This document shows positions 13,282 through 21,111 of a DNA stretch of 21,111 bases, one piece after another. Position 1 is the first letter of the stretch, and each line of letters opens with the position of its first letter. The stretch spans positions 1 to 21,111 of the IMG/VR virus record IMGVR_UViG_3300044527_000208. One strand, given 5' to 3'. The notes under the pieces are model-generated. The model saw only the letters and a program-made list of their open reading frames with translations, was not told the origin of the DNA and did no database searches. The translations under genes were made by a program, and so were the position numbers. Origin of the DNA: a virus.

Positions 13282-13481
13282 GTTACTACACCCTGAAGTG
13301 GCGTGTGAATCAAGGATGGCCACCAGAGCGTTTATTTGAGCGTAGGAACGCCGTAAAGGACGGCATGAAGGTTTGCTCTAAGTGCCAGGACACAAAGCCC
13401 GTAGAGGGCTTTTATGAGCGTTCCAGGGGTGGTTGGCTGGCAGAGTGCAAAGTTTGCTTCAAGGCTCGGTATAAACGCTAG
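13185..13481 (+). CDS. HTH plus zinc-ribbon protein, last rightward gene
   Basis: The product contains ERVLTIGSTTLTLREWAKRG, KLSYYTLKWRVNQGWPPERL, a phage/plasmid HTH module of the type LxxWAxxxGxxYxTLxxRxxxGWPPE. A second zinc ribbon follows (VCSKCQDTKPVEGFYERSRG, ECKVCFKARYKR), seen in front of HNH nucleases and other DNA-binding proteins. ATG 13185 lies within the preceding zinc-ribbon gene (97-nt overlap), with only a weak Shine-Dalgarno. Residues 1-11 overlie the upstream gene's second cysteine pair. The stop TAG shares the CTAG at 13478-13481 with the opposing gene. Confidence 0.72.
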   Translation: MQKVPNQISNERVLTIGSTTLTLREWAKRGKLSYYTLKWRVNQGWPPERLFERRNAVKDGMKVCSKCQDTKPVEGFYERSRGGWLAECKVCFKARYKR

Positions 13482-14815
13482 CCACCATACCGCGAACGAT
13501 AGATAAGTGGCAGGGGCATATTGCTTTCGCGCTTGCCACGCATCTTGTCATAGAGATACATCGCAAGTGGTGATGCTGTCGCAGCAGCCGTGCCTACCAG
13601 TCTTGCAGGGCCAAATGGCGTCATGGCAGCAGCACCGCCCACCGTACCTAGGGCTGAAATGCCTGCGCCAACCATGTCATCTTCACCGACGCGGCGCTCG
13701 GTTTCCATCAAACCCTCGGCTACACCAATGCCACCAATAGCGCCTGGCAAGCGAGGCATGGCTGCCATGCGTGCAGAGCCGCGCTGAAAAGCACTTGGAC
13801 CTTTGACTTGCGGGATGGGCTGAGTGCGAGCGCCTCGAGGGCCAGCGCCTTCTTGTGATGGCAGGAATAACCCGGCACGGTTTGGTTGCTGGCGCATTTC
13901 TGGTGCCATAGCTCTGATCTTATTTTCAGCTTGAATGGCTGCCTCTTTCATTTGATGCGCCTCACTCATGCTTCGCGCTTTTTGAGCCACATCTTCGTAA
14001 GCGCCTGCGCCAGGAACATCTTGTGCTCTGATCCAATTTTGCGTCATTCGACCGCCAGCAGGCGGCCCTTGAATCGGACCTTGCGCAGGCGGCAAAGCAC
14101 CACCCGGTGAAGTGATGACGGGACTTGTTCCAGGCGCAGCAGTTGGAGCCACCGAAGGTGCTGCAGTAGGCAGCGCTCCAGCTTGAGGCTTACCGGCCAT
14201 CATGCCAGCAACTTTTGTTCCTAGGACGGCACCAGCAACGTCGGCTGATAGCTGGCCAACATCAGACTCGGCGCCCATTTCCATCAATTTCTGGCCCATA
14301 TCAGCAAACGTAACGCGCTGTCGTGGCTGCTCGGGAATCGGTGTTAATTCACCCTTGGCCTCCGTAATTTCAGGAGGCTCACGTTCTGGCTGTGGCTCAA
14401 ACACGCCAAGTGATGCAATCGACTTTACATAGTTGCGCGTACTTTCTGGCAACTGGCTTTTCTTGGGGCTGGTAAAAAACGGATGATCATGGCCTGCGTT
14501 ATACCCGGCCACTGCCATCAAAGGATCACCAAAGCGATCAATGCCCTGCCGAAGATAAGTCACACCCGCAAGGATGTTGGTATCGGGCTGTTTAAGTTCT
14601 TCTTCCTTAAAGCCCAGCATCCTGCCCGTAGAAGGGCGCACTTGCATGATGCCAATTTCACCAACACCACCAACCTTGGACTGATCAAGGCCGCTTTCTT
14701 GCAACGCTACTGCCAGCGCTAATGCTGGATCAACACCCTGACTTTTAGCAATTTCAACAATTTTCCGTGCAACAGGAAGTCTATCTTCAGGAATGCGCTG
14801 CAATAGTTGTTCCAT
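13478..14815 (-). CDS. Virion-associated lytic transglycosylase
   Basis: The 445-residue product has an N-terminal SLT domain (about 15-145): ALAVALQESGLDQSKVGGVG with the catalytic Glu of ES, GEIGIMQVRPSTGRMLG, ILAGVTYLRQGIDRFGD and MAVAGYNAG. It degrades peptidoglycan by cleaving between MurNAc and GlcNAc. A Pro/Ala/Gly-rich linker (about 205-265) is followed by a region with low-complexity Arg/Gln/Pro stretches and a hydrophobic, glycine-rich C-terminal segment (about 390-425: AGISALGTVGGAAAMTPFG). This suggests insertion into or passage across the host membrane. It fits an internal virion or ejection protein that opens the cell wall for DNA entry, rather than a lysis enzyme. It is the last gene of the late leftward group. 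Confidence 0.86.
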   Translation of the reverse strand: MEQLLQRIPEDRLPVARKIVEIAKSQGVDPALALAVALQESGLDQSKVGGVGEIGIMQVRPSTGRMLGFKEEELKQPDTNILAGVTYLRQGIDRFGDPLMAVAGYNAGHDHPFFTSPKKSQLPESTRNYVKSIASLGVFEPQPEREPPEITEAKGELTPIPEQPRQRVTFADMGQKLMEMGAESDVGQLSADVAGAVLGTKVAGMMAGKPQAGALPTAAPSVAPTAAPGTSPVITSPGGALPPAQGPIQGPPAGGRMTQNWIRAQDVPGAGAYEDVAQKARSMSEAHQMKEAAIQAENKIRAMAPEMRQQPNRAGLFLPSQEGAGPRGARTQPIPQVKGPSAFQRGSARMAAMPRLPGAIGGIGVAEGLMETERRVGEDDMVGAGISALGTVGGAAAMTPFGPARLVGTAAATASPLAMYLYDKMRGKRESNMPLPLIYRSRYGG

Positions 14816-14817
14816 GA

Positions 14818-16437
14818 TTAACGCCCCAAAATATCTCTGCGCAAGGCTTCACGAGCCTCACTATAAGGCTGCTGGCTTGTGGGCCTTGTGCCAGGCACTT
14901 GCGGATTAGCGCCTGATGTCATGCCTTGATACAAGCCACGCAGCTTTGCGTCGTACTCTTTGACCATTTCATCGTATTGCGGCGAACGCTTAAACTGCTC
15001 AAAGGTCTTATTGCTATCAAGCAAAGCGTTGCGGATCTTTTCTTCAAAATTGGCACGTTCAATCATGTGCTGGGCCTTAGCCTGAACAACCCGAGGCCGA
15101 TCGCGCACAGTCGGACCCATGCTGCTGAAGATCAACTGTTCAAAGTTAGAGATTGAACCCTGGCCTTGAGCCATTGATCTAAAGCCAAATGAGATCTCGG
15201 CAAATCGTGAAGTAAGCAACGATAAATTATCAAGCACTTGCTGCACGCGCTCGTCATACTGCTGCTTTGATTCGCCAGGATTTTTGGGTAGCGTAATCCG
15301 ATTAGCTGTCATCACATCGCGGATCTGCGGCACAGAAACTGAATACCCGCGGCCAAGGCTAATACCCTCTTCAATCAGCTTGCCCACTGCTGGTAAAACG
15401 CCAGGCCTTTCAAGCACAGCGAGCACTTGATCCATACCGGGTGCTTTAACTAATTCAACAACAGACTCGGCTGCCTGCCTGCGTTGTAGTGCTGTATCAC
15501 CCTTTTCAAGGGCTGCCTGACGCGCTTTTTCATCAGCTTCAGCACGCGCTCTTATGGTGGCTGATTCACGCTCACGCTCAAGGGCTGATTGTGTTGTAGT
15601 CTTGCGGCCAGCAGGTGATGGTGCGGCAGGTTCTTCGCCAGGCTCTCTTGGTTGTGCAGGTGCGCCAGGCTGCTTAATTTGACTTGGTTCAGTACCACCA
15701 GAGAATTGACGGTCCCAGTCATCACGCCAGCCCTCTGCCGCTGCCCTGGCCCTACTTCGAGTGGCAACTGAATACTCATTGGGGGTCATTAAAAACTTGC
15801 CCAATCCTGGAAGTTCAAACTCAGATTGAGTCTGACCCGGTATATTTTCTGGGTTGACATACTGGCCTGTACGCTTGTCAAAAACAGTGCCATTCATAGC
15901 GATCAAGTAACGATCTTGATCAAACTTGACCATGTCTTCAACAATCTTGCCGTACTCTGGTTTGATACGTTTTAATTGCGCTATGGATTGCGCTGTGATG
16001 TTAGAAAATCCTGCTGGCGCAGTAGCTGTACCACTATCTTGAACTGCAGCTTCTTGGCCTGCTTTAGGAGAGCCGCCAAGTAGACGGTTAAATTCCTTCA
16101 TGGCAGCAGCTTCTTGATAGCCAGCAACTTCTTTTGCGGCCATTTCAGCCTTTATCTGAGCTATATCAATATTGCGCTTGCGCTCAGCCTCATCAGCCGT
16201 GCCGTAAGCCTCCATGACATTGCCAAGGCTTTCACCGAAACGCCCTGATTTGGTTGGCTGCAGGAACGCTCTAGCCATCGCTAAGTTACGCGGATCAATG
16301 AACTCATTTCGAGCTTGCAAGGCATCGAGCATGGCCTGCTGCGCAGCAATATATTTTTGCCGCGATGCTGCAAGTTCTGGATCTTCGCCGGGAATTGCTA
16401 CTGGCGAGACCGTCGCTAATGGAGATTGTTTAGCCAC
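14818..16437 (-). CDS. Large virion-associated protein, probable internal/ejection protein
   Basis: The 539-residue product starts at GTG 16437 after GGAGGG (well spaced). The N-terminal 150 residues are helical (RQKYIAAQQAMLDALQARNE, NIDIAQIKAEMAAKEVAGYQ). The middle has a beta-looking stretch (RYLIAMNGTVFDKRTGQYVN), then a Pro/Glu/Ser linker (about 255-290). The C-terminal half is long helical (LERERESATIRARAEADEKA, ... FGFRSMAQGQGSISNFEQLI). The shape is like internal virion proteins of podovirus-type phages, which pass the membrane before the genome. It sits between the lytic transglycosylase and another virion protein and is reported as such by context. No enzymatic motif. Confidence 0.7.
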   Translation of the reverse strand: MAKQSPLATVSPVAIPGEDPELAASRQKYIAAQQAMLDALQARNEFIDPRNLAMARAFLQPTKSGRFGESLGNVMEAYGTADEAERKRNIDIAQIKAEMAAKEVAGYQEAAAMKEFNRLLGGSPKAGQEAAVQDSGTATAPAGFSNITAQSIAQLKRIKPEYGKIVEDMVKFDQDRYLIAMNGTVFDKRTGQYVNPENIPGQTQSEFELPGLGKFLMTPNEYSVATRSRARAAAEGWRDDWDRQFSGGTEPSQIKQPGAPAQPREPGEEPAAPSPAGRKTTTQSALERERESATIRARAEADEKARQAALEKGDTALQRRQAAESVVELVKAPGMDQVLAVLERPGVLPAVGKLIEEGISLGRGYSVSVPQIRDVMTANRITLPKNPGESKQQYDERVQQVLDNLSLLTSRFAEISFGFRSMAQGQGSISNFEQLIFSSMGPTVRDRPRVVQAKAQHMIERANFEEKIRNALLDSNKTFEQFKRSPQYDEMVKEYDAKLRGLYQGMTSGANPQVPGTRPTSQQPYSEAREALRRDILGR

Positions 16438-16439
16438 AA

Positions 16440-17486
16440 TTACCCTCCAAAATCTGCATAGTCTGACAACTCATCAATAGCTGCCTGCTCTTCTGCGCTA
16501 AGTCTTCCAGACCCTGACAAAAGTTTGTTTAATGTAGCGCCAAGCGTTTGAGATTTATTGCCGCCCTCTCCAGTTTTAATTCCTGATAGGAAGGATGTCA
16601 GTGATCCAATTTTGTCTATCGTGCTTGGACCATAACCAGCGCCTTGTAGCGGACCCTTGTACGTGTCAGTGGATGACAATGGGAACTGGTAATTTCTAAG
16701 CAATGCAGCAACATTGGCAGCCCTTGTTAAAGGCGCCTCAATCTTAGATTGCTCATATTCAAGCTGTTGTGTACCAAGATCTGACAGGGTGCCTAAAGCG
16801 CTTTTTGCAGCTTGTTGCTCTTGAGATCCCAGGCCTGTCAATGCCGTGGTGGCACCTGTCTGCCCGGTTTGCTCTCTGAGGGCAGCATCCAGTGCAGTCT
16901 CAAAGCCTTTAGACCTAGCTTCAGTTTGTTGTGCTTGAAGCTTGGAGGCAATGTCTGCAAGGGCTTGGCCACCGATGTTACCCACCCTGCTGCCACCAAA
17001 CTGGCCACCACTAATTCCTAATGCTTTTAAGCCTGGCAGTACACTGCGCTGCAAGTTGATGTCAGATTGCTTTTGCATCTCATCAATGACTTGCTGCTGG
17101 TATGGGTTGTAAAACTTTGCAATATCTGCGGAGGACACATCCATGGCAGACTGGCCAGCCGTCAATGCTTGATCCAGTGGCGTTTGATACCGAGCCAAGT
17201 CACTGAGGGCTGGCAACTGACCTGCCGCATAAGGCTTACCCGTTGCTGGGTCAATGCCGGATGTTAAGTTGGTCAGATAATCTGGCCTGCTGGCAATCAG
17301 ATCTTTGCCCTGAAAAGCCGTCATGGTTGGCTTTCCTGAAGCATCAACGCCAGTTGTGCCTAGTTGACTTTGACCTACTTGAGCAAGATTGGTCAGATAG
17401 TCAGTAAGATACTGAGGTGCTGACTGCTGCTTGGTTGTCGTTGTCGTAATGTCTGGCGGTGCAGAGCCTTCAAATAATCCGGCCAT
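16440..17486 (-). CDS. Virion structural protein with NPYQQQVIDEM...LPGLKALG module
   Basis: The 348-residue product has a low-complexity start (DITTTTTKQQSAPQYLTDYL). A central region FYNPYQQQVIDEMQKQSDIN, LQRSVLPGLKALGISGGQFG, SRVGNIGGQALADIASKLQA is helical and glycine-rich. This pattern (NPYxQxVxDEMxRxxxxNLQRxxLPxLKAxxxxxGxxGSxR) recurs, from memory, in virion proteins of marine and freshwater podovirus-like phages near the internal proteins. It probably serves in the tail/ejection apparatus. Adjacent to the giant repeat protein by two bases. Confidence 0.7.
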   Translation of the reverse strand: MAGLFEGSAPPDITTTTTKQQSAPQYLTDYLTNLAQVGQSQLGTTGVDASGKPTMTAFQGKDLIASRPDYLTNLTSGIDPATGKPYAAGQLPALSDLARYQTPLDQALTAGQSAMDVSSADIAKFYNPYQQQVIDEMQKQSDINLQRSVLPGLKALGISGGQFGGSRVGNIGGQALADIASKLQAQQTEARSKGFETALDAALREQTGQTGATTALTGLGSQEQQAAKSALGTLSDLGTQQLEYEQSKIEAPLTRAANVAALLRNYQFPLSSTDTYKGPLQGAGYGPSTIDKIGSLTSFLSGIKTGEGGNKSQTLGATLNKLLSGSGRLSAEEQAAIDELSDYADFGG

Positions 17487-17488
17487 GA

Positions 17489-20400
17489 TTATTTACCCTT
17501 CTTGATATAGTCCAGCGGTGACTTATGCGCTGGCGGTGGTAAGTCTTTGACTTTCGTGGATCTGGCTCGTGCTCGGATCTCGTGCATCATCTTGTAGAGT
17601 TTATCTGTTCCTGCCTTGGTTGAGCCATTACCAAGTGCAGAAACCACATCGGCAGGGAATACAAACTCACCATCAGCAAGCCATGCCGGGATGTCATCCG
17701 ATTGACCATCACCATCGCCAGCAACGTGTTTGCCGTCTTTGAAGTCTTCACGGCCACCGGGCAATACACCACCACGATTCATGAATTGCAAGTTCATGGC
17801 ACCGCCCTTGGCTCGAAGTGGCTCTACATAACCACCTTCAGCGTACAGGGCCTCTTCCATTTCAGGCTTCTTAGGCTCTCGAAGCCCTAAGATGTCATCA
17901 ATGGATGTTTCCTGGCCATACGTAAAAGTCGGCGCTTGCTGGGGTTGGATGCCTAAGCGCTGCGACATCACAGCAGCCAACATAGGATCAATTTGATTCA
18001 TTTGCTCTACCCTTTCCATCAAGGCTTCCAATGGATTTTTTATCCTAGTATCACCAGAAGATTTCAATACGCCCAAGTCATAGTCCGATGAGGCCATAGG
18101 CATTGAAAGTCCAGAGGCTGCAGCACTTGGCAACTTAAATGATGCTTTAGGCGCCGCTGCCTTTGGTGCCGTTGTCTTAGTAGCTTGCGCAGCTTGTACA
18201 GGAACCACTGCAGCAATTGGATCAAGCTTTGGCTTAACTGGCGCAACGTCTGCCGTCAGTGTTTCAGTGGTCTCAGGACCATCGCCAGACTTGGTCGTGA
18301 CCGTGACCGTATTATCCGCGTTCCAGGTTGTGGTCACGATCTGATCACGATCGGGATTGCTGACAATCTGCGTAACCACGCCCGTATCAACATCAGACTT
18401 AATTTCCGTTGTACTGCCTGTAGTATCTGTCGTAATGGACGTTACAGAGCCAGCATCAGACGTAATTTCAGTCTTGACGCCCGTGCTTTCATCAACAGTC
18501 ACGCTTGTTGTGACGCCCGAGTTATTCGTAGTTACGGTGGTTGTGGTATCGCCTTGAATCGTGACTTGCTTGGTCTCACCAGTTGTCGTATCAGTGGTCG
18601 TGGTGGTCACAGTCTGCGAGCCAGCATCCATCGTGACTTGCGTATTGCTTGTGCCATCCGATGCGAGCACTGTGGTGACATCACCACTTGAACCTGATTC
18701 AATCGCCAAGTTGCTATTGCTATTTGTAAGCGTCTGAATCACGGTATTAGCATCAGCGCCACTCACAATCGCTGTGGCCACCGATGATGCTGTGGCATCA
18801 GCCAGGCTTGCGCCATTGTTCACAGCACTGTTGACAACATTGCTCACAACAGTGCTGGCATCACCGCCATTGGTAATGGCCGTGCTGGTTGCAGCAATCA
18901 GCGTTTGACTCGTATCAGCACCAGCAGCAAGGCTTGCATCCACAGCAGATCCAACGGCTTGTGCTACATCACCACCTGCATTTGCTACTGCTGTCAGGGT
19001 TGAGTCTATTGCTGATGTGGAATCAGTGCCTGCATCAACAGCAGCCTTGACGGCACTATTAATAACTGCTGAAGTATCAGCACCATTAGTTATAGCTGTA
19101 GTGACAGCATTGTCAATAACTGCGCTTGTGTCCGCGTTGTTATTTGCGGCTGTGTTAATAACAGTGCTTACAACTTGCGAAACGTCAGCATTGTTGTTTA
19201 GTGCAGCCGTGATAACACTTGTAACTACTGAGGCGGTGTCAATACCGTTGTCAAGCGATGTCTTTATAACGCTGTCAACAACTGCTGAAACGTCAGCATT
19301 GTTATTCAAAGCTGCCGTAACGGTGTTTGTGATGGCGCTTGATGTGTCTACATTGTTAGTAACGGCTGCTGTGGTTGCGCTGTTGACAACTACTGAAGCA
19401 TCAGCGCCAGCGTCAAGAGCGCCCTTCACTGTGCTGTTAACAGCAGTCGTGGTATCGACGTTGTTGTTCAGGGCTGATGTCAGCGTATTGGTTACCGCGG
19501 TATTGGTATCAGTGCCTGCCGTGATTGCAGCGTTGCTTGCCGTTGAGAGCACGGTGTTTGCATCGCCGCCATTGGTGAGTGCTGCGTTGACGGCTGCTGA
19601 TGTATCACCTGTCGTGGCCACAGCACTTGATACAGCGGCTGCTGTGGCGTCGTTATTGCCTTGTGATGCAATACCTCCAACCACTTGCGTAACAGCGTCT
19701 GTAGAGCCTCCAGAGGCTGCTAGCGCGGCATTCACAGCGTTTGACGTTGTGGCGGTTACATTGCTGCCACTTGTGATTGCAGCGTTAATAACAGCCGTTG
19801 TGGCATTAGCAACTTGCGCTGTATCACCACTTGCGCTGACTGATGTAATGATGCTTGCTGCGGCATCTGCCACATTGCCACCGTTTGCGGTAACAGCTTT
19901 GAGGGTTGTATCAACAGCATCAGTTACGCTGGCACCACCACTTACAGCGCCTGTAACGATGCTTCCAGCATTGGCATTTAAGTCTGTGCCATTGGATGCA
20001 AGGCTTGACACCACATTGTTGATCACGGCTGTGGTATCGCCTGTGTTAGCAACAGCAGCAGACGTTAAGTTAGTAACACCTTGAGAGAGATCTACGCCAT
20101 TATTAATGACCGCCTTGACCGTTGAGTCAATCGTGCCACTAAGATCAGCCGTGATGTTATTGCTCACCACGCTATTAATCGAAGTCGTTAAGTCAGCGCC
20201 TGAACTCAAGTCTGCTGTCAGTGCGTTGGAAACATTCACACTTGTGTCAGTAGGCTTGATGATGTCAATTTTCAGATCAGTGGCACCTGCTGGCTCGCTG
20301 ATGCTGACCTTAGTTCCATCTGCATACGTACCAATCATCGTGTCACCGTTGATGGTGACGTTGGTCAAATTGCCAGCACCTTGCAGCGTTGCTTCAGTAG

Positions 20401-21111
20401 GACCGCCAATAAGTGCGCCAAAGGCTGCCTGGCGCAAGGCCGACATATGATCTTGGCCTGTAGCCCTTGCAATCACGTACTCTTCAATGCCCTCGCCTGC
20501 TGAGCCTTTGATCATAGTTTTGGCTATGGTGCCGCCAAATGGGATCTTATCGGCAGCAGCCGTCATCACGGCTGTGACGGCTCCAGCAGCCTTCATATCG
20601 TCCACAGCACTCTTAACTGCTTGAGCGCGTGTTAAGCCCTTGGCCAGGCCTTCATCGACCTTCTGAGCGCCTTGTAAGCCAGCAGACTCAACAACATCAA
20701 GCCCTAATCCTGCAAGCATACCGCCATATCTGATGAGGGCTGATGTGCCGCCTGTGGCCAGTGCTAATGCAATGTTGGGCAGTTCCTGCAGGCCTTCTAC
20801 GCCAATCATTTTGGCCACTGCGCCAGGATTATTCAGTATTGAATCCTTAAGAGCGCGGCCAATATCGGCGGCTGAGTTGGCACTTGCAAATCTGTTCTTA
20901 ATTTCAGATTCACTAGCCTTCAATGCTTGCGGATAAAGTTCTTGAGCGATATTTTCAAGCTTGCGGCCATAGTCAGACATCTGAGCCGTATTAAAGCCCA
21001 GTGACTCACCAATCGTGCCGAAAGCTTTGAGCGTGTTACCAGCAGCCTCTGTTGTCATGCCAAACGCTGTTTTGATGGCGTTTACAGGGATGACTGACTG
21101 CACAAGCTTAT
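17489..21111 (-). CDS. Giant virion protein with tandem 18-residue repeats, truncated 5' end
   Basis: Open past the right edge; the visible part is at least 1206 residues (numbering below starts at GTG 21103). 1-245 is a helical, Ala/Gly-rich segment with predicted amphipathic and hydrophobic stretches (LALATGGTSALIRYGGMLAG), typical of large ejection proteins. 302-790 holds about 26 copies of an 18-residue repeat with consensus D-x-S/T-x-A/V-V/I-x-S/N-x-V/T-x-x-A-V/L-x-N/A-G/N-A/V. 808-950 is Thr/Val/Ser-rich, with short strand-turn units (TGVKTEITSDAGSVTSITTD). 955-1000 is a Pro/Ala/Lys linker. 1126-1180 carries a motif also seen in other phage tail/internal proteins (GDGDGQSDDIPAWLADGEFV, FPADVV). 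The tail ends in basic residues. Likely virion component; exact role unknown. Confidence 0.72.
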   Translation of the reverse strand, partial: KLVQSVIPVNAIKTAFGMTTEAAGNTLKAFGTIGESLGFNTAQMSDYGRKLENIAQELYPQALKASESEIKNRFASANSAADIGRALKDSILNNPGAVAKMIGVEGLQELPNIALALATGGTSALIRYGGMLAGLGLDVVESAGLQGAQKVDEGLAKGLTRAQAVKSAVDDMKAAGAVTAVMTAAADKIPFGGTIAKTMIKGSAGEGIEEYVIARATGQDHMSALRQAAFGALIGGPTEATLQGAGNLTNVTINGDTMIGTYADGTKVSISEPAGATDLKIDIIKPTDTSVNVSNALTADLSSGADLTTSINSVVSNNITADLSGTIDSTVKAVINNGVDLSQGVTNLTSAAVANTGDTTAVINNVVSSLASNGTDLNANAGSIVTGAVSGGASVTDAVDTTLKAVTANGGNVADAAASIITSVSASGDTAQVANATTAVINAAITSGSNVTATTSNAVNAALAASGGSTDAVTQVVGGIASQGNNDATAAAVSSAVATTGDTSAAVNAALTNGGDANTVLSTASNAAITAGTDTNTAVTNTLTSALNNNVDTTTAVNSTVKGALDAGADASVVVNSATTAAVTNNVDTSSAITNTVTAALNNNADVSAVVDSVIKTSLDNGIDTASVVTSVITAALNNNADVSQVVSTVINTAANNNADTSAVIDNAVTTAITNGADTSAVINSAVKAAVDAGTDSTSAIDSTLTAVANAGGDVAQAVGSAVDASLAAGADTSQTLIAATSTAITNGGDASTVVSNVVNSAVNNGASLADATASSVATAIVSGADANTVIQTLTNSNSNLAIESGSSGDVTTVLASDGTSNTQVTMDAGSQTVTTTTTDTTTGETKQVTIQGDTTTTVTTNNSGVTTSVTVDESTGVKTEITSDAGSVTSITTDTTGSTTEIKSDVDTGVVTQIVSNPDRDQIVTTTWNADNTVTVTTKSGDGPETTETLTADVAPVKPKLDPIAAVVPVQAAQATKTTAPKAAAPKASFKLPSAAASGLSMPMASSDYDLGVLKSSGDTRIKNPLEALMERVEQMNQIDPMLAAVMSQRLGIQPQQAPTFTYGQETSIDDILGLREPKKPEMEEALYAEGGYVEPLRAKGGAMNLQFMNRGGVLPGGREDFKDGKHVAGDGDGQSDDIPAWLADGEFVFPADVVSALGNGSTKAGTDKLYKMMHEIRARARSTKVKDLPPPAHKSPLDYIKKGK
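18734..20200 (-). repeat. Array of about 26 degenerate 54-bp (18-aa) tandem repeats
   Basis: In the reading frame of the giant protein the Asp (or Ser/Asn) that begins each unit recurs every 18 residues without slip from residue 514 to 784 (16 units). It is also in step from 338 to 410; the units between are disrupted by a few one- to five-residue changes. Hydrophobic positions 5, 6, 9, 10, 13, 14 are spaced as one face of a helix, followed by a turn N/G-x-D. Nucleotide identity between units is moderate, so this is an old, diverged array kept at the protein level. Confidence 0.85.

Follow-up and report, generated by a model that had tools for sequence, protein, structure and literature searches.

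An array of predicted single-helix repeats as a candidate exchangeable spacer in a giant, putatively ejection-type virion protein of uncultured, probably podovirus-like phages

The viral DNA analysed here (the window, 21,111 nucleotides; positions 1 to 21,111 of IMG/VR record IMGVR_UViG_3300044527_000208) encodes an array of 18-residue repeats that is best explained, at a probability of roughly 0.55, as an alpha-solenoid with one helix per unit that acts as an exchangeable spacer within a giant virion protein of the internal, ejection type, encoded by a group of uncultured, probably podovirus-like phages. The gene position that harbours the array is called the slot, and its product the slot protein. 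Of the gene to which an earlier note had assigned the repeats, the array proved real, and the gene itself was found to be incomplete in the window: its 5' 734 codons lie beyond the edge, and the complete slot protein (P0005), encoded at L003:4579-10401 on contigs with the same gene, comprises 1940 aa. Residues 743-1190 of P0005 are ~69% identical to the slot protein of L098, and most relatives besides L098 carry other modules in place of the pre-array domain (Table 1).

Table 1. Features of the slot gene and of the genes that follow it, in window positions.
Feature	Position	Strand	Remark
Slot protein gene, 3' part (1206 aa and stop; P0001)	17489..21109	-	ORF list
Pre-array domain, P0005 about 735-1020	20252..21109	-	
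Irregular first half of helix array (P0001 about 308-514): ~12 units, ~13-20 residues each	19568..20188	-	lag 18 z = 4.5
Regular half of helix array (P0001 515-802): 16 units, each exactly 18 residues long	18704..19567	-	self-similarity
12 units of the regular half modelled with AlphaFold2	18866-19513	-	
Thr/Asp/Gly-rich segment, P0001 about 807-965	18215..18691	-	
C-terminal module (C-module), P0005 1748-1940	17492..18070	-	most conserved part of slot protein
P0002, 348 aa, next in cluster	16440..17486	-	in 45/48 relatives
P0003, 539 aa, next in cluster	14818..16437	-	in 42/48 relatives
P0004, 445 aa, SLT transglycosylase domain	13478..14815	-	Pfam PF01464, E 7.9e-20

The repeat period was determined from the mean BLOSUM self-similarity of the protein, which peaked at lags of 18 (z = 13.4), 36 (z = 13.4) and 54 residues (z = 11.6); among the 500 shuffles used as reference, z never exceeded 3.9 at any lag. 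In total, the array comprises some 27-28 units within ~495 residues, which compares well with the ~26 units over ~490 residues first reported, and the 16 units said to be in perfect register were recovered without a single indel, the last of them being degenerate. Within this regular half, unit position 2 is occupied by D and position 18 by G or N in 15 of the 16 units each, and position 14 by A in 12 of them. Hydrophobic residues fall on positions 6, 7, 10, 11, 14 and 15, which is the pattern previously numbered 5, 6, 9, 10, 13 and 14, shifted by one. The array is rich in A, T, V, S and N, contains 5 K/R as opposed to 35 D/E, and lacks F, W and Y over all 495 residues. Since the units share on average only 34% identity at the protein and 46% at the DNA level, they appear to represent an old array kept in register rather than recent slippage, and this register has probably been maintained for long. 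The segment that follows (18215-18691, minus strand) shows a weak period of its own (at lags of 33 and 12 residues, z about 3 each) and may represent a degenerate version of the 12-residue repeats (TxTNTGVTTQTT) of which some relatives build their spacer.

Unit lengths in related arrays were measured as the distance between successive unit markers. Of 82 spacings measured in 15 non-redundant arrays, 78 equalled 2 mod 4, with values of 18 (46 cases), 22 (20) and 26 (12), and units of the same length were clustered in runs, as in L080, where 22-residue units are followed by 26-residue units and then by units of 22 and 18. Hydrophobic pairs placed every four residues between packed helices would cause units to lengthen by whole turns, and the addition of one such pair per four residues suggests growth by single helical turns. 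The unit lengths of the relatives thus argue for helices independently of any structure prediction.

Structure prediction of the window array yielded the same picture. AlphaFold2, applied to 12 regular units with eight aligned rows, returned twelve regular helices (pLDDT 93.4, pTM 0.89), one helix of ~14 residues and one 4-residue turn for each unit, as expected for an alpha-solenoid. The 26-residue units of L086 were modelled mostly as helices of 22-23 residues joined by turns of 3-4 residues (best model pLDDT 85.8, pTM 0.86), a prediction that was confident in 2 of 5 models. AlphaFold2 can be over-confident on repeats, and the bias reported for near-perfect repeats is towards beta-solenoids (PMC11795689); the window array consists of imperfect units (34% identity), and its predicted fold is helical. 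The best PDB match of the 18-residue model was the designed protein 8cwy (TM 0.73 to query, E 1.2e-5), and the best natural chain noted was VPS35 (TM 0.47). For the 26-residue model, the best solved match was the designed protein DHR4 (5cwb; TM 0.70/0.81, 2.3 Å). A viral structure library contained nothing similar to the array model at E 1e-3 or better. The prediction was one of the checks proposed in the earlier note, whose suggestion of one ~14-residue amphipathic helix plus turn per unit, in an alpha-solenoid rather than a beta-helix, agrees with the all-helical model and with the four-residue length steps.

The designed repeat proteins resemble the array in being regular stacks of similar helices; the array differs from them in its natural origin, its one-helix units and a sequence identity of only 11-16%, and an evolutionary link is not implied. 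TPR, PPR and Sel1 repeats consist of two helices and span about 34-36 residues. The array shares stacked helices with these alpha-solenoids, and two of its units add up to 36 residues, whereas its repeat is a single helix whose length varies by four residues and which matches none of their Pfam families; a Pfam scan of the full protein for TPR, PPR, Sel1, HEAT, ARM and ankyrin repeats remained negative even at E 1. The array likewise lacked matches to any repeat family in Pfam, PHROG and NCBIfam, and to PDB sequences at a meaningful E-value, in keeping with the initial impression that it is not a named family. When IMG/VR was scanned with a profile of the array, 25 loci were obtained, every one in the same gene slot; a P0006 homolog lies upstream in 24 of them, and the 25th is a fragment beginning within the array. 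No match was detected in 50,697 phage records, a search in which a low-complexity filter may hide weak ones, nor in 301 genomes of the family and 399 genomes of the phylum of a metagenome-assembled genome (MAG) labelled Limnohabitans; in the search for such cellular relatives, the profile recovered 4 of 4 positive controls, which include sequences used to build it. Literature searches returned nothing relevant to helical solenoids with an 18-residue repeat or to collagen within ejection proteins, and a paper on Limnohabitans phages contained nothing on such repeats or on collagen spacers.

The gene order adaptor-P0007-P0006-P0009-slot-P0002-P0003-P0004 was constant in 48 phages, as counted wherever homologs were found on a contig. 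The adaptor encoded upstream of the slot gene is of the SU10 type (Pfam PF24175, E 3.1e-23), P0006 is similar to P22 gp10, with homologs annotated as 'stabilization protein', and an 82-aa gene separates P0006 from the slot gene. P0004 additionally matches PHROG 342, 'internal virion protein with endolysin domain' (E 2.3e-11), and the corresponding cluster of DSL-LC04 carries the annotations 'stabilization protein' and 'DNA transfer protein'. Such strictly conserved neighbours (an adaptor of the SU10 type, a stabilization protein like gp10 and an SLT-bearing protein of the ejection type) lend indirect support to the earlier assignment as a virion protein, and synteny together with distant profile matches indicates that the phages are probably short-tailed (podovirus-like). 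The slot protein itself matched no ejection family in PHROG, Pfam or NCBIfam. Membrane insertion by its N-terminal part was considered, and P0005 was found to lack a strong transmembrane segment (no 19-residue window with a mean hydropathy > 1.4). The same gene order occurs on L140, a contig in the Limnohabitans-labelled MAG, and this bin membership of a phage contig provides a weak lead to Limnohabitans as a host. L040 and L042, whose slot proteins lack a helix array, have an extra gene of 568-570 aa (L040:12518-14230; L042:12518-14224) that lies after the 82-aa gene and before that of the slot protein, and in the related genome MW202545 a gene annotated as 3-oxoacyl-ACP synthase (L006:12686-13630) lies between the gp10-like and the slot gene. 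The slot protein of MW202545 is rich in cysteine, and the next protein of its virion cluster (L006:15997-17235) contains long cysteine runs (CCSCCCSCCCSCCCCC...).

Among complete slot proteins of the group, identity of the C-module ranged from 54 to 85%. Over its final ~88-102 residues, L014, L040, L056 and L067 were 94-99% identical to the window, despite different spacer classes or unit lengths. The spacers that precede it are either helix arrays or polymers unrelated to them: Gly-x-Ser collagen-like triplets in L014 (Pfam Collagen PF01391, E 4.3e-46, 155 bits versus a cut-off of 27.2), (GT)n in L043, (GS)n in L089 and Thr-rich 12-mers in L081. Coiled-coil-like repeats (QKVASDLGITKDQLLDQIGKTE..., ARIAELVAQGQTNQQATETAIRE...) found near the C-module in the slot proteins of L118 (residues about 1880-2080) and L140 (within about 330 residues before the C-module) are possibly another class. 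On a P0006 tree of 48 phages, five spacer classes, assigned by simple scripted rules, required at least 18 changes compared with the least possible 4; the helix class alone required 13, at least 10 of them being forced by well-supported branches. Some of these loci were retrieved by means of the array itself, which biases the class frequencies and, to a lesser degree, the numbers of changes; P0006 itself may recombine. The nearest relatives of the window, L040 and L042 (P0006 98% identical), have no helix array. L014 shares 97% identity with the window in P0003 and 76% in P0006, a mismatch (L014 9680-13387; 14458 onwards) attributable to recombination within the virion cluster. One contig of 101,830 bases (IMGVR_UViG_3300047121_000347) contains two related structural modules about 55 kb apart, L064 and L103, which differ in spacer class (helix and collagen-like); it may be a joined or chimeric assembly or represent two phages.

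Spacers were generally poor in K and R, with class medians of 1.5-4.6%, compared with 6.2% for the N-terminal parts and 12.1% for the C-module, although for the 'other' and GxS classes the contrast is slight. With the exception of the GxS class, they were also poor in aromatic residues, Cys, His and Met. Because close relatives replace the rod by completely different spacers, its physical properties seem to count for more than its sequence.

Short-tailed phage ejection proteins diverge quickly and vary widely in size, according to a review (PMC8954989). T7 gp14/15/16 and P22 gp7/20/16 share with the slot protein the position in the cluster, the SLT neighbour, a fast mosaic divergence and the variation in size, whereas the slot protein has no sequence match to their families; the review section consulted does not describe a helix array or a swappable spacer. 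The fit of synteny, SLT neighbour and mosaic size variation to these proteins is the reason for reading the array as an ejection-protein spacer.

Several other explanations were weighed. The slot protein could instead be an external tail needle or fibre, with the array, collagen and Thr-rich segments as shafts swapped under host-range selection. Collagen repeats usually mark external fibres in phages, which counts against ejection, and those of L014 match tail-fibre PHROGs; the slot gene follows the gp10-like gene, where P22 has its needle gene, gp26, and the frequent changes of spacer class would also suit a fibre. However, fibres usually keep their N-terminus and vary at the C-terminal tip, whereas here the conserved end is the C-terminus, which moreover resembles the ends of tape-measure proteins. 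The helix-array, Thr-rich and N-terminal parts match no fibre family, and candidate fibre proteins are encoded elsewhere (P0007; L141 genes), so that we regard a fibre as unlikely. The last 70-80 residues of the C-module are similar to C-terminal parts of tape-measure proteins and of hypothetical proteins in other phages, which raises the alternative of a tape-measure-like ruler, in which copy number sets the length of a tail, a channel or a periplasmic reach. Homologous arrays are indeed unequal in length (about 495 residues in the window, about 680 in L098), and tape-measure proteins share with the slot protein a tandem 18-residue spacing and a related C-terminal motif. Their units, however, show an 11-11-18 spacing with W/F markers (PMC3271669), and such markers are missing from an array devoid of F, W and Y; the slot protein is in addition not conserved in length. 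The earlier note had suggested that array length could set the reach of a spike, fibre or ejection channel. This was not supported: the slot proteins of relatives whose adaptor and P0006 genes are similar range from 956 to 2507 aa and contain unrelated spacers, and the interchanged classes should differ greatly in rise per residue. Free variation of spacer class and length does not support a ruler, which we consider improbable.

Two further alternatives concern the fold. The region might be a disordered low-complexity linker, its period a relic of duplication and its model an artefact: the (GT)n and (GS)n spacers of the same slot look disordered, the array is rich in A, T, V, S and N, and AlphaFold2 can over-predict order in repeats (PMC11795689). 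Yet 16 units have kept their exact length at so low an identity, the candidate capping residues D2 and G/N18 persist in 15 of 16, and unit length changes across relatives in steps of exactly four residues, about one helical turn, all of which makes disorder rather improbable. The period by itself is equally compatible with a left-handed beta-helix of 18 residues per coil. This alternative was rejected and retains hardly any probability, given hydrophobic pairs spaced by four, unit lengths of 22 and 26 residues among relatives, and helices predicted by AlphaFold2 despite its reported preference for beta-solenoids in near-perfect repeats (PMC11795689).

In the alpha-solenoid spacer that we favour, each unit would comprise an N-capped amphipathic helix of 14 residues and a tight 4-residue N/G-x-D turn, and neighbouring helices would pack through hydrophobic pairs at four-residue spacing. 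The spacer would act as a cassette, repeatedly replaced by other polymers that are likewise simple, poor in K/R and low in contact order. The retained C-module would probably dock in the virion close to the nozzle and adaptor proteins, which are conserved. The spacer could be drawn through the narrow portal-tail channel helix by helix, unfolding and then re-extending on the far side, and would thereby keep the N-terminal modules connected to the C-terminal anchor while DNA is delivered. The array, its length steps, its restriction to one slot, the exchange of spacers and the conserved C-module are read directly from sequence and the fold from prediction, whereas the place in the virion, ejection, the passage by unfolding and refolding, and anchoring are inferred. 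More tentatively, and at less than even odds, the slot may be interchangeable because what an ejected protein needs there is a chain able to thread the portal channel and re-extend, not a specific sequence, a natural one-helix solenoid, similar in construction to designed helical repeats and lengthened in whole helical turns only, standing in for collagen, Thr-rich or Gly-rich polymers.

A natural family whose helix length appears quantised in single turns (18, 22, 26) would offer a comparison set for designed repeat proteins. Some 50 related phages with at least four unrelated polymers in one position would likewise amount to a natural experiment on what an ejection-type protein requires of its spacer. 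Ejection proteins are poorly understood, and whether sequence or polymer physics is decisive in them would become a directly testable question.
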